Assembly (NCBI GenBank): GCA_035995165.1
Contig: DASYKU010000109.1
Span: forward strand, 1 to 50,934
Length of the DNA stretch: 50,934 nt
Direction of reading: 5' to 3'
DNA from: Mycobacteriales bacterium
GTDB taxonomy: Bacteria > Actinomycetota > Actinomycetes > Mycobacteriales > CADCTP01
The position numbers were made by a program, and so were the translations under genes. Each line of letters starts with the position of its first letter. Positions within the stretch are counted from its first letter, which is position 1. Below are positions 5,450 to 37,157 of the stretch, piece by piece. Under the pieces are notes generated by a model. It did not search any database, was not told the DNA's origin, and was given only the letters and a program-made list of their open reading frames with translations.

Positions 5450-6349
5450 TCAGACGGCTGCTTGCATCGTCGCGTCGTCACTCCTCTCCGAATTCATCTC
5501 GGCAATGAGCTTGTCGAGGAAGACGACGCTGTCCTCCGGAGACATAGCGAGCCGCTCCAGGTCCTCGAAGCGGTCCAGATACCGGGCGATGAGCTCGGCA
5601 TCGTCCTTGATCGTGATGTCCTCCACCGTCTCGATGTGGACGACCTCGTCGAGGTCCGCCTCCGCGAACTCCAGCAGGATGAAGTTCCCCTGCATGCCGG
5701 GGTGGGCCCCCACCGCAAAAGGGAGCACCCGCAGCGTGACATGAGGCTGCGCCCCGTACTCCTTCAGGCGTTCCAGTTGCCGGATCATGGTCCGGTCGCG
5801 GTGCCCGACCCGGCGCCGGAGCACCGACTCGTCGACGATCACGTGCATCTCGGGCGGGTCGTCGCGGTCGTGGATCTCCTGCCGGTGTTCGCGGACGATC
5901 CAGGCCCGCTCGGCCTGCTCCTCGTCGAAGCCGGCGGCGAACTTGAGAATGGCGCGGGCGTATTCCTCCGTCTGGAGAAGGCCCGAGACGTAGACCGGGT
6001 CGTACTGCCGGATCACCGAAGCCGCGCCCTCGTACGCGAGGTACTCGCGGAAGCCCGGCTTCAGCACCGACAGATACTGATCGTAGAAAGAGGTACCGCG
6101 GCTGGATTTGGCCAGCTCGATCAGGCTCGTGGCCCGCCGGCTGTCCTTGACGTTGTAGTGGGTGAGCAACGCACGCAGATCGTTCGTCGAGATGCTGACC
6201 TGGCCGCCCTCGATCCGGATGAGCTTCGAGGGGGACCAGTCCATCGCCTTGGCAACTTCTCCCTGCTTCAACCCGGCCGTCTCACGCAGCTTGCGCAGCT
6301 CGCTGCGGAGCCTCCGCCGTTGGACGGAGGGATCCTGGATGGCGGCCAT
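5450..6349 (-). CDS. XRE-type helix-turn-helix regulator with DUF5753 domain
   Basis: A 299-residue protein with an N-terminal XRE HTH (LRKLRETAGLKQGEVAKAMD... SPSKLIRIEGG) and a C-terminal DUF5753 region with the landmarks YVSGLLQTEEYARA, VDESVLRR and LRVLPF. This is the large actinobacterial family related to WhiJ and Scr1. ATG 6349 is chosen because AGGAGAGG lies 11 nt upstream; a GTG at 6379 is possible. Members are nearly always next to a DUF397 gene, which lies across the gap at 6798. The upstream region holds dense repeats that may be its operators. Confidence 0.88.
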   Translation of the reverse strand: MAAIQDPSVQRRRLRSELRKLRETAGLKQGEVAKAMDWSPSKLIRIEGGQVSISTNDLRALLTHYNVKDSRRATSLIELAKSSRGTSFYDQYLSVLKPGFREYLAYEGAASVIRQYDPVYVSGLLQTEEYARAILKFAAGFDEEQAERAWIVREHRQEIHDRDDPPEMHVIVDESVLRRRVGHRDRTMIRQLERLKEYGAQPHVTLRVLPFAVGAHPGMQGNFILLEFAEADLDEVVHIETVEDITIKDDAELIARYLDRFEDLERLAMSPEDSVVFLDKLIAEMNSERSDDATMQAAV

Positions 6350-6373
6350 CGTGTCGTCGTCCTCTCCTGAACC

Positions 6374-6500
6374 TGGCACCTAGGTGTCTGGCTGTGTGCC
6401 ATCTACCGGGCCGGGATCTGTCGGTCTGCTAGGTAGCAGGAGACTACCACCGATCTGCTACATGGCACATCGCATAAGGCAGGACGTCGCATGGCACGGC
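6374..6500. promoter_or_regulatory. Repeat-rich upstream region of the XRE gene
   Basis: Part of a 448-bp gap (6350-6797) with no convincing gene. It contains the 10-bp palindrome CACCTAGGTG (6377-6386), the inverted pair TGTGCCAT (6395-6402)/ATGGCACA (6462-6469) with a further ATGGCAC at 6491, and the dyad CTGCTA-GG-TAGCAG (6426-6439) with another CTGCTA at 6455. This density is unusual for this DNA and points to multiple protein-binding sites. Confidence 0.45.
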
Positions 6501-6646
6501 GGGTACACCGCGCTGAACAGCAGGAACACGGAGGTGATCGGCACATCGCCGGACAGCGGTCTGCCACCTGGCGGACCGCAAGACGTCGGTTCGGCTGGTG
6601 TACGACGGGCAACCATCGCTACGATTGCTGGCGAGGCGCCAGGTGT

Positions 6647-6702
6647 CCATCACCGAAACCCCGCGGGCGGGGCGATGGACGGGTGAGGCGTGTCGGTTTT
6701 TT
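6647..6702 (+). other. Hairpin followed by a T6 run in the XRE/DUF397 gap
   Basis: CCCCGC-GG-GCGGGG (6659-6672) is nested within CCATC/GATGG (6647-6651 with 6674-6678). A run of six T follows at 6697-6702, rare in this genome. The 18-nt distance between stem and T-run is too long for a classic intrinsic terminator. A TACGAT hexamer near 6620 could start a short RNA ending here. Not resolved. Confidence 0.3.
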
Positions 6703-6731
6703 GCGTCCTGATGACGAACGCGAGTTAGACT
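6701..6731 (+). promoter_or_regulatory. Probable promoter of the DUF397 gene
   Basis: TTGCGT (6701-6706) and TAGACT (6726-6731) are separated by 19 bp (18 if TTAGAC is used), a reasonable housekeeping-type promoter in an otherwise G/C-rich stretch. Confidence 0.4.
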
Positions 6732-6769
6732 CCGGACATCGTGGTTGGTGTCCTCTGTCCGGTTCGGAC
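6732..6769 (+). promoter_or_regulatory. Two mutually exclusive hairpins in the DUF397 leader
   Basis: CCGGACA (6732-6738) pairs perfectly with TGTCCGG (6756-6762). The same right arm can instead pair as GTCCG-GTT-CGGAC (6757-6769). The leader therefore has two exclusive folds ahead of the ribosome site at 6786-6791. Confidence 0.3.
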
Positions 6770-6797
6770 GGACGGACCGAGGCCTGAGGAGTCACGC

Positions 6798-7010
6798 GTG
6801 ATCAGTGTGCCGCCGCCCATCGACGCTCCGTGGCGCAAGGCCCGCGCCAGCCAAGGCAGCGGCTGCGTGGAGATCGCCGACACCGCGCAGCACGTCTGGG
6901 TGCGGGACTCGAAGGACCGTGAGGGCCCGATCCTCACCTTCACCCGACACGAATGGACCGCCTTCCTCGCCGGTGCCAGAGCGGGCGAGTTCGACGGTCC
7001 ATTCCAGTGA
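6798..7010 (+). CDS. DUF397 domain protein
   Basis: A 70-residue small protein with the DUF397 pattern: APWRKARASQGSGCVEIA, then VWVRDSKDREGPILTF and a final WTAFLAGARAGEFDG. The GTG at 6798 has GAGGAG (6786-6791) 6 nt upstream; the frame is open from 6741 but that start lacks a ribosome site. DUF397 proteins pair with XRE/DUF5753 regulators, here the gene at 5450-6349 in divergent orientation. Such pairs have been studied in Streptomyces as regulator/partner units (Scr1-Scr2) and proposed as toxin-antitoxin-like. Which role applies here cannot be read from sequence. Confidence 0.85.
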   Translation: MISVPPPIDAPWRKARASQGSGCVEIADTAQHVWVRDSKDREGPILTFTRHEWTAFLAGARAGEFDGPFQ

Positions 7011-7033: not shown

Positions 7034-7366
7034 TCACCACTCGCTGGGTCGCAGGTGCACCCACGGCCGCTCGTCCGGCTCGGGCCGGAACAGGTCGTCC
7101 TCCTCGGGGTCCGGCGACCGCGACCGCAGCGCGCTGATCACCGGCGCCGGGTCGTCGCCGAGGTTGGTCGCGGTCCGGGCGTAGTCGAGCAGCGCGGCGT
7201 CGCGCGCCTGTCGAGCCCGGACGGCCATCACTTCACACGCCATCCACGCGGTGACCGCGCCCGCGAGCGTGGCTGCGCCGAGCCACGGATGGTGGGTGAC
7301 GATCATCAGCGTCGACGGCACGCCGGCGGTGATCATCAGGCCGCGGAAGCAGTTGTCTCGGGTCAT
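7034..7366 (-). CDS. Small hypothetical membrane protein
   Basis: A 110-residue protein with two adjacent hydrophobic segments (about residues 9-25 and 28-45, including LGAATLAGAVTAWMACEVM), then a charged cytoplasmic-type tail ending DERPWVHLRPSEW. The ATG at 7366 has GGGAGGGG 6 nt upstream. It is divergent from the LuxR-type gene at 7529. I do not recognise the family. Confidence 0.7.
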   Translation of the reverse strand: MTRDNCFRGLMITAGVPSTLMIVTHHPWLGAATLAGAVTAWMACEVMAVRARQARDAALLDYARTATNLGDDPAPVISALRSRSPDPEEDDLFRPEPDERPWVHLRPSEW

Positions 7367-7441
7367 CGCGTACCCCTCCCGGACATCGGCGCCCGTCCGT
7401 GATCTTCGGTGGACACCGTGTAAGTACCTACGTAAAAGGTA

Positions 7442-7458
7442 AGTGCCACCTAGGCGTT
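7442..7458. promoter_or_regulatory. CACCT-type motif upstream of the LuxR-type gene
   Basis: TGCCACCTAGGCG closely resembles the palindromic CACCTAGGTG at 6377 and the related sites at 6561-6576 and 6635-6650 in the XRE gap. It lies next to an A/T-rich stretch (7423-7441) between two divergent genes. Possibly a shared regulator site. Confidence 0.3.
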
Positions 7459-7528
7459 TGAGCAAGACTTCCCGGTGTTTCTCTGGTTCAGTAGGTGGTG
7501 TGACCCTGCTGCAAAGGAGCGGCACTCC

Positions 7529-8368
7529 ATGACCGACCTCACCGCTCGGGAGGACGAGGTCTTGCGCCTCGCCGTCCAGAGGCTGAGCAACGACGAGATC
7601 GCCGACCGGCTGAACATCTCCCGGCGCACTGTCGAGGCCCACATGCGCACGCTGTTCCGCAAGACCGGTGTGACCAGCCGGAGCCAGCTCGCGACGCCGC
7701 CCGGCCCGGTCGCCGCCGGCGCCGACCGGCTCGCGCAGTACGACGCGGTGCTGCGGAGCCTGGTCGACCGGCACCTCTCGCTGTTCGAGGAACGGGTCGA
7801 GATCACCTTCACCGTCGGCGCCCGGGGGGACGCCGACAGTGTCGTCGAACGGCGCTGGACGGTGCCGAAGCCGTTCGTGGTCTACCGGACCTCGCGGCCG
7901 CTGGTCGGGCCGGACTGGCTCGGGCGCGGTCCCGACAGCCTCGGCCTGACCACCTCGGTCGCGGCGGCCGACGTCGAGGCGAGCGTGTCCGCGGTGATCG
8001 AGCCGGACCGGCGGCCGCTGGCGGTGGTGCTGTTCCGGCCCGGGCTGACCAAGGAGACCGAGTGGACGCTGAGCTACGCGTCCGAGGGGCTCTGGGATCC
8101 GCTGCGGGACGGCGGGTCCGACCGGTTCGGCTGGTCCACGGTGACCAGTGGGAACACCGGCGGGCACCGGCCGACGGTGGTCGACATGGCGTTCCGGGTG
8201 GTGTTCCCGGCGGGGTGGACCGGGATCGGGCTGGCCGAGCAGAGCGGGGTCGGCGTGCCGAGCGAGGCGATGCGGCGCGAGTCAGGGCAGCAGGAGATCA
8301 CCTGGCACGACGGCGATCCCGCCGCCCCCAAGTACGAGTTCCGCGTCACCGGCACCCCGCCCCACTGA
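7529..8368 (+). CDS. LuxR-type HTH protein with an uncharacterised C-terminal domain
   Basis: A 279-residue protein with an N-terminal LuxR/FixJ HTH (about residues 4-55: LTAREDEVLRLAVQRLSNDEIADRL, then RTVEAHMRTLFRKTGV). Having the HTH first is unusual, as LuxR domains are normally C-terminal. Residues 90-275 form a separate domain with VVERRWTVP (105-113), LFRP (168-171), GLWDPLRDGGSDR (187-199) and a late FRVVFPAGW. The same motifs in the same order occur in the membrane protein at 36123-37157. ATG 7529 has AAAGGAG at 7513-7519. No receiver domain is present, so it probably senses through the C-terminal domain. Confidence 0.8.
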   Translation: MTDLTAREDEVLRLAVQRLSNDEIADRLNISRRTVEAHMRTLFRKTGVTSRSQLATPPGPVAAGADRLAQYDAVLRSLVDRHLSLFEERVEITFTVGARGDADSVVERRWTVPKPFVVYRTSRPLVGPDWLGRGPDSLGLTTSVAAADVEASVSAVIEPDRRPLAVVLFRPGLTKETEWTLSYASEGLWDPLRDGGSDRFGWSTVTSGNTGGHRPTVVDMAFRVVFPAGWTGIGLAEQSGVGVPSEAMRRESGQQEITWHDGDPAAPKYEFRVTGTPPH

Positions 8369-9109: not shown

Positions 9110-10273
9110 ATGAGCACGATCTCGCTGCCGAACCCGGTCCGTCGCCGCGGCGCCACCGCCGCCGGAGTGGCGTTCTCCTTCCTGGTGGCGCTGGGGTTCT
9201 TCTCCTTGCAGGCCGAGCTGCCGGCCCTGGACGGCCGGTCGGGCATCCTGCTGGCGCTGGACATCGTGGTCGGCGTCCTCGGCACCGCGGCGCTGCCGCT
9301 GGTCCGCCGCGCTCCGGTCGGGCTCGCCCTGGTGCTCTCGGCCCTGCTCACCGTGTCGGCCGCCCTGACGCCCGCCGCCGGGACGGCCGTGCTCTGGGTC
9401 GCCCAGCGCCGCCGGCTGCCGGTCGCGATCGGGGTCGCGCTGGCCGGCGTGGCCGGCCACACCGTGCGCGAGCTCTGGCGACCCGTGCCGGACCGCCCAC
9501 TGGTTCTCTGGATCGCGATCATCGTGGCCTCGTACGCGGCGCTGGTCGGCTGGGGCGCGCAGAACCAGGCCCGGCGCGCTCTCGTCGACTCCCTGCGCGA
9601 CCGGGCCCGGCGGGCCGAGGCCGACCAGGCCAACCGGCTGGCCGAGGCCCGGCGGGGCGAGCGGACGAAGATCGCCCGGGAGATGCACGACGTGCTGGCC
9701 CACCGCCTGTCCCTGCTGGCCGCGTACGCCGGGGCGCTGGAGTTCCGGCCGGACGCGCCGCCGGAGGAGCTGGCCCGGGCGAGCGGCGTGATCCGGACCG
9801 GCGCGCACCAGGCCCTGGAGGAGCTGCGGGAGGTGATCGGGGTGCTGCGGGAGGACCGGGCCGAGACCGAGGGCGACCGGCCGCAGCCGACGTTCGCCGA
9901 CGTACCGCGGCTGCTGGAGGAGTCCCGCGCGGCCGGCACCCCGGTCCGCCTCGACAACCGCATCGAGGACCCCGGTACGGTCCCGGACGTGCTGGGTCGC
10001 ACCGTCTACCGGGTCGTGCAGGAAGCGCTGACCAACGCCCGCAAGCACGCGGCCGGGCAGTCGGCGACCGTGCTGTTGGCCGGCAAGCCCGGCCGGCACC
10101 TGCTGGTCGTGGTCACGAACCCGACCGCCGACCCGGCCGGGGACCGGGTGCCGGGCAGCGGTACCGGCCTGGTCGGTCTGCGCGAGCGGGTGCAGCTGGC
10201 CGGCGGCCGGCTGGACGCCAAGGCCGGACGGGGCCGGTTCCGGATCTGGGCGGTGCTGCCGTGGCCGGCGTGA
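9110..10273 (+). CDS. NarL-type sensor histidine kinase
   Basis: A 387-residue kinase: four or five N-terminal membrane helices (to about residue 145), a HisKA_3 dimerisation helix with phospho-acceptor His193 in REMHDVLAHRLSLL, then a HATPase_c domain with QEALTNARKHA (N-box) and GTGLVGLRERV (G-box). It pairs with the response regulator that overlaps its 3' end. A TACTGT hexamer 7 nt upstream of the ATG and no Shine-Dalgarno suggest a leaderless mRNA. The pair is convergent with an ABC exporter operon, which may be its target, as for antibiotic- or lipid-stress systems in actinomycetes; that link is inference. Confidence 0.92.
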   Translation: MSTISLPNPVRRRGATAAGVAFSFLVALGFFSLQAELPALDGRSGILLALDIVVGVLGTAALPLVRRAPVGLALVLSALLTVSAALTPAAGTAVLWVAQRRRLPVAIGVALAGVAGHTVRELWRPVPDRPLVLWIAIIVASYAALVGWGAQNQARRALVDSLRDRARRAEADQANRLAEARRGERTKIAREMHDVLAHRLSLLAAYAGALEFRPDAPPEELARASGVIRTGAHQALEELREVIGVLREDRAETEGDRPQPTFADVPRLLEESRAAGTPVRLDNRIEDPGTVPDVLGRTVYRVVQEALTNARKHAAGQSATVLLAGKPGRHLLVVVTNPTADPAGDRVPGSGTGLVGLRERVQLAGGRLDAKAGRGRFRIWAVLPWPA

Positions 10274-10911
10274 GGGTGCTCATCGTCGACGACGACGCGC
10301 TCGTCCGGGGCGCGCTGCGGATGATGCTGTCCGGCTCGGACGTGCTCGAGGTCGTCGGCGAGGCCGGCGACGGCGACGAGGTCGAGGCGGCGCTGGCCGA
10401 GCACCGGCCCGAGGTCGTGCTGATGGACATCCGGATGCCGCGGGTGGACGGGATCAGCGCGACCGTGGCGCTGCGCCGGCGGCCGGACCCGCCCGAGGTG
10501 ATCGTGCTGACCACGTTCGACGCGGACGAGAACGTGCTGCGGGCGCTGCGGGCCGGGGCCAGCGGGTTCCTGCTCAAGGACACCCCGCCGGCCCGGATCG
10601 TCGAGGCCGTCCTGCGGGTCGCGGCGGGCGAGTCGATCCTGTCGCCCGCGGTGACGCGGCGGCTGATCGCCCGGGTCACCGTCGACGGCGGTACGGCCGA
10701 CCGGTCCCGGGCCGACTTCGCCCGGCTGACCGAGCGCGAGGCCGACGTGGTCCTCGCGATCGCGAAGGGCCGGACCAACCAGGAGATCGCGACCGAGCTC
10801 TACCTCTCGGTGGCGACGGTGAAGACCCACATCTCGCACGCGATGACCAAGCTCGGGCTGGCCAACCGCACCCAGCTCGCCCTGCTGGCCCACGACGCGG
10901 GCCTGGTCTGA
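10261..10911 (+). CDS. NarL/LuxR family response regulator
   Basis: A 216-residue two-domain regulator. Its receiver domain has the acidic pair IVDDD, phospho-acceptor Asp56 in LMDIRMP, the switch Thr in VLTTF and Lys in LLKD; the C-terminal LuxR HTH includes LTEREADVVLAIAKGRTNQEIA and VATVKTHISHAMTKLG. It overlaps the kinase gene: start at GTG 10261, or GTG 10270, which gives a GTGA overlap with the kinase stop and begins MRVLIVDDD. Neither has a Shine-Dalgarno, fitting translational coupling. It ends 9 bp from the convergent ABC permease gene. Confidence 0.93.
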   Translation: MAGVRVLIVDDDALVRGALRMMLSGSDVLEVVGEAGDGDEVEAALAEHRPEVVLMDIRMPRVDGISATVALRRRPDPPEVIVLTTFDADENVLRALRAGASGFLLKDTPPARIVEAVLRVAAGESILSPAVTRRLIARVTVDGGTADRSRADFARLTEREADVVLAIAKGRTNQEIATELYLSVATVKTHISHAMTKLGLANRTQLALLAHDAGLV

Positions 10912-36122: not shown

Positions 36123-37157
36123 TCAGGGGGCCATCGCCCACCAGAGGTCCCAGCTGTACTGCTCGGGCAGCGGGTCCGCGCTCTCCCAGCGGTAGCGCAG
36201 CGACCCGTCCGGGCCGGTCAGCCGCTTGAGTTCCCGGTTGTCGCGGTCGCGGACGAACACGTCGTCCCCGGCCTCGGGCGGGAAGTCGAAGTTCACCACC
36301 AGCCGGCCCAGCGTCGAACGCTCCGGGTCGCCGGCCCGGGCGGACGGCGTCCAGGTGAGCCGGTCGTGGCCGCTGTCGCGCAGCACGTCCCACAGCCCGG
36401 GCATCCGGTAGCGCACGTACCAGCTGGTGGGCCTGGTGATGCTCGGCCGGAAGACGAACATGCAGCGCAGCAGCCCGGGCTTCTCGGTCAGCGCGATCTG
36501 CCCGATCGCCGTCCGGTCGTCCTCCGAGCGGGTCACCAGCTCGATGTCGGCCAGCGTGACGCCGTCCGCGTCGAGCTGGGTCGGCGTGGTCAGCCGGCCC
36601 TGCAGGAACGGCAGCGCCGCGCCCCGGTCCGGCACCGTACGGCGGTGCTCGACGACCCGGTCGGCCTCGGTGTCGGTGCCGACCAGGTAGGTCAGCTCGA
36701 CCTCGTCGGTGTACGGCGCCGGGTAGCCCAGCCACAGGTCGTGCAGCGCGGCCTGGGCCGCGGACCACCGCCCGCGCAGCGCCTGCAGCCCGGACAGCTC
36801 GGCCGCGGCGGCCGCGGCCCGCTCGGTCGCCCGGGCCACCTCCTCCCGGGCCTCGGACAGCTCCTGCTGGTGCCGGGTCTCGGCCAGCTGGGCCCACGCG
36901 CGCTGCCGGAGCCGGACCCAGGCGACCGCGAGCTGGCCGAGGAACAGCAGCACCGAGGCCGCGACCAGCCCGGCCAGCAGCCAGCGCCCGACGCCGTCGG
37001 TCCAGACCGCGAGGCCGGTCGAGATCGCGGCCAGCACGACGTTCGCGCCGACCGCGGTGGTCTTGAGGGTGGTCGCGAAGTCCTTCCAGCCGAGGCCGTC
37101 GACGGTCGGCTCGGCATCTGCCGGCTCGTCCGTCCGGCGTACGGCGGGTTCGGTCAC
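36123..37157 (-). CDS. Membrane protein with coiled coil and an uncharacterised cytoplasmic domain
   Basis: A 344-residue protein: two membrane helices (about 35-53 and 58-80), a coiled coil (about 86-130, many Glu/Ala/Arg heptads), then a domain from about 152 to 340. That domain has VVEHRRTVP (168-176), FRP (236-238), GLWDVLRDSGHDR (254-266) and VVNFDFPPEAG, the same order and nearly the same spacing as residues 90-275 of the LuxR-type protein at 7529-8368. GTG 37157 has GGAGG 4 nt upstream. I do not recognise the domain; it may bind a shared ligand or partner. Confidence 0.7.
   Translation of the reverse strand: MTEPAVRRTDEPADAEPTVDGLGWKDFATTLKTTAVGANVVLAAISTGLAVWTDGVGRWLLAGLVAASVLLFLGQLAVAWVRLRQRAWAQLAETRHQQELSEAREEVARATERAAAAAAELSGLQALRGRWSAAQAALHDLWLGYPAPYTDEVELTYLVGTDTEADRVVEHRRTVPDRGAALPFLQGRLTTPTQLDADGVTLADIELVTRSEDDRTAIGQIALTEKPGLLRCMFVFRPSITRPTSWYVRYRMPGLWDVLRDSGHDRLTWTPSARAGDPERSTLGRLVVNFDFPPEAGDDVFVRDRDNRELKRLTGPDGSLRYRWESADPLPEQYSWDLWWAMAP

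Follow-up and report, generated by a model that had tools for sequence, protein, structure and literature searches.

The window analysed here, a stretch of 50,934 nucleotides from a Mycobacteriales bacterium (contig DASYKU010000109.1), contains two genes lying 28 kb apart whose products, encoded at 7529-8368 (+) and 36123-37157 (-), end in a common domain of about 200 residues. The first, hereafter the LuxR form, begins with a LuxR-type helix-turn-helix (HTH); the second, hereafter the 2TM form, begins with two hydrophobic segments that are followed by a long predicted helix. An earlier note on this DNA had proposed a shared domain from a set of motifs, their spacing and the dissimilar N-termini of the two proteins, and all three observations are borne out. 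The motifs VVERRWTVP/VVEHRRTVP, FRP and GLWDPLRDGGSDR/GLWDVLRDSGHDR follow one another in the same order in both ORFs, the spacing between FRP and GLWD is identical (18 residues from F to G, 16 from P to G, 15 between the motifs), and the N-terminal modules are as described (Table 1). Homology between the C-terminal regions is clear (32% identity over 145 residues, BLASTP E 2e-14; shuffle Z about 22), the Smith-Waterman score of the pair being 164 as compared with a mean of 35 and a maximum of 69 for shuffled sequences. In a six-frame search of the whole genome, each copy recovers the other at E of about 1e-13.

Table 1. Features of the window that bear on the shared domain
Feature	Position	Strand	Description
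Small membrane protein, 110 aa, divergent from LuxR form	7034..7366	-	Sister genome has an orthologue at the same position; unmatched in Pfam and NCBIfam
TACGTA candidate operator	7429..7434	.	Context ACCTACGTAAAAGGT; the sole TACGTA of the window; three in the orthologous intergenic region
LuxR-HTH fused form, 279 aa	7529..8368	+	GerE HTH 4-55, short linker, predicted all-beta domain at about 72-278; orthologue L011 has the same architecture
Shared domain of the LuxR form, including the conserved leading helix	7736..8365	+	Homology, family alignment
2TM form, 344 aa	36123..37157	-	Hydrophobic segments 33-51 and 60-78; predicted helix/coiled coil to about 142; domain to the C-terminus; orthologue L012/L007
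Shared domain of the 2TM form	36126..36785	-	Homology, family alignment

Both reading frames are confirmed by orthologues in the second genome of the genus, the metagenome-assembled 'uncultured Corynebacteriales bacterium AVDCRST_MAG41' (hereafter the sister genome, G001). There, the LuxR form is a single-frame protein of 322 residues made up of an HTH, a coiled coil and the domain, and the 2TM form is 71% identical to that of the window over its whole length and 80-81% identical over the domain. The HTH of the window protein matches PF00196 (GerE) with 60.8 bits, the family cut-off being 23.5 (E 9e-17), and the corresponding part of a low-confidence structural model matches the HTHs of ComA and NarL at Z 9, as well as that of VraR. 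Pfam recognizes nothing else in the LuxR form, and nothing at all in the 2TM form. It has the GerE HTH in common with the LuxR/GerE-type (NarL/FixJ HTH) regulators, but its architecture is reversed: in the usual LuxR regulators the HTH is C-terminal, behind a receiver or an autoinducer domain, whereas here it lies at the N-terminus, is not accompanied by a receiver, PAS or acyl-homoserine-lactone domain, and precedes a C-terminal domain that falls in no listed family. On the criterion that defines the family, the LuxR form counts as a GerE-HTH protein, one whose C-terminal domain is new.

The gene for the LuxR form is divergent from that of a small membrane protein. This arrangement is kept in the sister genome, where the orthologue of the small protein (L027 4835-5176, +) is 37% identical to that of the window (E 2e-20) and occupies the same divergent position, the two proteins having 110-113 residues. 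The outer flanks of the pair differ between the two genomes. In the window, the locus is adjoined at 5450-7010 by genes for a WhiJ-like DUF5753 HTH regulator and, divergently, for a small DUF397 protein, a pair that is common in actinobacteria; the proteins are of different families from those of the LuxR-form pair, and they are not conserved beside the LuxR form of the sister genome. Downstream of the LuxR form, a HisKA_3 histidine kinase and a receiver-GerE response regulator are encoded at 9110-10911. The LuxR form of the sister genome is flanked by TldD/TldE-like genes (read by eye).

The only TACGTA of the window falls in the 162-bp intergenic region that separates the two divergent genes (7367-7528). 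The 191-bp counterpart in the sister genome contains three (GGATGTACGTATCC, GCTACGTACATAGG and GGGTACGTAGGAGG) out of the 39 present in its 4.6 Mb; the window's genome has 88 in 5.4 Mb. The hexamer is over-represented in both regions, since the number expected from its genome frequency is about 0.002 in the sister genome and 0.003 in the window; when the lower G+C content of the intergenic regions is allowed for, the probability of chance occurrence becomes about 1.5e-4 and 0.06, respectively, which is weaker than the genome-wide figure. These TACGTA-centred palindromes suggest candidate operators through which the LuxR form might control its own transcription, although a different regulator might be the one that uses them. 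Two more TACGTA of the sister genome, 10 bp apart (L085, G001:C95, positions 2439 and 2449), lie in the intergenic region between the genes for an S8-type protease and an LAL-type LuxR regulator; this tandem may be a second target or may serve another regulator that uses TACGTA.

The domain extends beyond these two proteins. A third copy, absent from the earlier note, was found by six-frame search at the edge of contig C34 of the window's genome; read in frame, it displays a second, N-terminal hydrophobic stretch. Profile searches raised the total to 23 members in three actinobacterial families, namely the window's own and two others in its class (f15 and f32), where occurrence is patchy (8 of 35 f32 genomes and about 8 of the 131 f15 genomes sampled). 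A sample of 395 further genomes from across the phylum was negative for the domain, in surveys that score few candidates per genome and may let distant members escape. Plasmid and phage records gave no match, and for viral contigs the broad alignment offered no stretch conserved enough for a scan. Three sets of weak hits were set aside: the lone DruL4 match of one member (E 0.002), treated as chance; matches in the Streptomycetaceae-like family f33 (E 7e-4 to 0.05), which come from the opposite strand of an HrpA-like helicase gene; and a match in G157 that lies within a long unrelated frame.

The proposal that the domain lacks a named family holds, since no match to it was found in Pfam, NCBIfam, PADLOC, PHROGs or PDB sequences, while it recurs in three families behind two different N-terminal modules. 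A literature search turned up no paper on a motif of this kind or on the sister genome. The idea that the domain is mobile fares less well. The fusion to a LuxR HTH was seen only in the two genomes of the window's genus, and all the other members are membrane-anchored. In a tree of 22 domains the LuxR forms fall nearest the third copy of the window's genome, with a poorly resolved branching order that falls short of proving a single fusion event. Pairwise comparison likewise places the domain of the LuxR form closest to the third copy (38% identity) and not to the 2TM form of the window. I infer from this distribution that the membrane form is the widespread one and the LuxR form a local derivative.

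All the members other than the LuxR forms have the same plan, i.e. two hydrophobic stretches within the N-terminal 40-130 residues (the first sometimes under the hydropathy threshold used), a helical linker and the C-terminal domain. Eight positions (G, D, E, F, W, Y, W and R) are invariant in the alignment, which comprises 22 of the 23 members, the G705 copy having been left out as it is out of frame at its end; a further twelve (P, R, P, L, G, D, W, F, F, W, P and Y) are nearly so. This conservation across 22 members points to a single fold in which the site or core is shared. The leading helix (Y..AIERI.DRE.PLF.E) belongs to the domain, since it is kept in the LuxR forms. AlphaFold models of the two window proteins, built from a four-row alignment, show the same order of 12 strands, but their pLDDT is 51 and 59 and they brought no convincing structural match; the domain is predicted, at low confidence, to be all-beta. 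Foldseek/VIA-align comparison of the low-confidence model returned weak beta-sandwich matches exclusively, with Z of 4 or less. Ig/filamin sandwiches align weakly with the first half of the modelled domain (Z 3.1-3.9), and ribophorin I and the N-domain of M1 aminopeptidases (LTA4H/ERAP/PepN) with the whole of it (Z 3.1-4.0), values that are below the level separating relatives from common beta arrangements and that have no counterpart in sequence.

Outside the window's genus, the 2TM form has a recurrent neighbour. At 14 of the 16 loci that could be tested, a small ORF of 46-86 codons lies roughly 100-410 bp upstream of the 2TM gene, divergent in 12 cases and in the same direction in two (G451/L055, G466/L056, G502/L058, G678/L060, G712/L061, G705/L062, G1155/L075, G1213/L076, G1158/L077, G1136/L078, G1175/L079, G1202/L080, G236/L024 and G343/L025). 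Its product has a membrane helix at the C-terminus, preceded by a GGEGG-type motif that reads GGEGG, GGDGG or GEGG. The simple gene caller used often overlooked these ORFs, and their product, hereafter the GGEGG protein, falls in no Pfam or NCBIfam family. A single one of 125 control genes from these loci had such a neighbour, which was the very same GGEGG ORF approached from its opposite flank. All 13 aligned copies have Gly-Gly ahead of a hydrophobic segment, the pN/pS values of four closely related pairs (0.12, 0.15, 0.28 and 0.58) lie below 1, and the ORF appears to be under purifying selection. At G628, the small divergent TM ORF is devoid of the motif, and at G530 the upstream side is cut by the end of the contig. 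G236 also contains, at L023 8101-9896 (G236:C15), a tandem pair of highly diverged paralogues of the domain, both TM-anchored, beside which the GGEGG ORF is absent. In the window's genus, no such ORF occurs within 4 kb of the 2TM gene of the window or of its orthologue; the upstream side of the third copy is beyond the contig end.

The other neighbours of the 2TM genes vary among loci and genera, and the intergenic regions between GGEGG and 2TM genes have no convincing motif in common. The region around the G502 copy (L058 12297-14750), for instance, encodes a TIR/SEFIR-like protein ('MDRRGFFISHAGADELWAQW...', read by eye) together with transposase-like fragments, which suggests a variable region. 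That the adjacency persists in two families while the surroundings change makes a good case for a functional link, and the GGEGG protein is probably the partner of the 2TM form. The domain is a new family with a new conserved micro-protein as its probable partner. Since the small protein encoded opposite the LuxR form lacks the GGEGG motif, the two gene pairs may be separate systems.

Taken as a whole, the data are best read as those of a cytosolic sensing domain that is normally tethered to the membrane and has been recruited as the sensory part of a one-component regulator that controls its own gene, a reading in which I place confidence and doubt in equal measure. In its standard form, the domain would sit on a coiled-coil stalk fixed in the membrane by two helices, and, outside the window's genus, it would act together with the tail-anchored GGEGG protein encoded next to it. 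In the window's genus, the membrane segments of one copy would have given way to an N-terminal LuxR/GerE HTH. The resulting one-component regulator would sense a ligand or a membrane partner through the domain, its HTH would bind the TACGTA-centred palindromes of the promoter region shared with the divergent small membrane gene, and it would thereby control its own gene as well as that one. The function first proposed for the domain, ligand or partner sensing, is hypothetical; the GGEGG ORF favours a partner and the candidate operators favour a regulator, the binding being putative in both cases. A broader formulation, which I advance more tentatively, is that of an undescribed actinobacterial two-gene membrane system in which the GGEGG protein is read out by a 2TM/coiled-coil beta-domain protein, and from which a genus-specific transcription factor was derived by swapping the anchor for an HTH.

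Other readings of the same data can be weighed against this one. One possibility is that the domain self-associates, in which case the membrane-bound 2TM form would act as the upstream sensor by sequestering or releasing the LuxR form. Both genomes that encode a LuxR form do encode a 2TM form, and the conserved leading helix and the coiled-coil stalk would suit dimers. However, the 2TM form exists without any LuxR form in the other families, the two genes are on different contigs in the sister genome and far apart in the window, no TACGTA is found near the 2TM genes, and the closest relative of the LuxR-form domain is the third copy; homotypic pairing is therefore unlikely. It is distinctly unlikely that the GGEGG ORF, as a small membrane peptide or toxin-like product, carries the real function, with the 2TM protein as a processing, immunity or localization factor and the LuxR fusion as a lineage-specific derived regulator. 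Such a view would account for the tight adjacency, for the apparent purifying selection and for the Gly-Gly and hydrophobic segment present in every aligned copy, but the surroundings of the pair show no recurrent transporter, peptidase or modification enzyme, and in the window's genus the domain persists with no such ORF beside its gene.

The plan of the 2TM form also recalls the S-2TM-beta family (Cap15, OptE), in which two TM segments are fused to a soluble all-beta domain (PMC12657218). The likeness is restricted to the 2TM form, and the beta part is a low-confidence prediction. The 2TM form differs by its long coiled-coil stalk, its LuxR-fused homologue and its GGEGG partner, and no linkage to a CD-NTase or mCpol cyclase was recognized in the neighbourhood gene lists (by eye, not by profile). 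Failing both the sequence and the gene-linkage tests, it is not filed in that family. That the domain gates membrane damage in a defence module, triggered or inhibited by the small protein, is very unlikely in spite of the common gross plan and the patchy distribution, as 0 of 22 members match the S-2TM-beta family in Pfam or PADLOC, the gene lists contain no nucleotidyltransferase (by eye), phage and plasmid records lack the domain and a LuxR fusion is unlike the design of an effector.

The analysis provides a sequence profile for an unnamed domain of 23 members, along with a short list of invariant residues, and brings to light a conserved micro-protein gene pair that standard annotation has possibly missed. 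The swap of the anchor for an HTH would amount to a natural experiment in which a membrane domain was turned into a transcriptional sensor. Since the signal of the LuxR form would be readable with a promoter reporter, this derivative may offer a simple route to the ligand or partner of the whole family.
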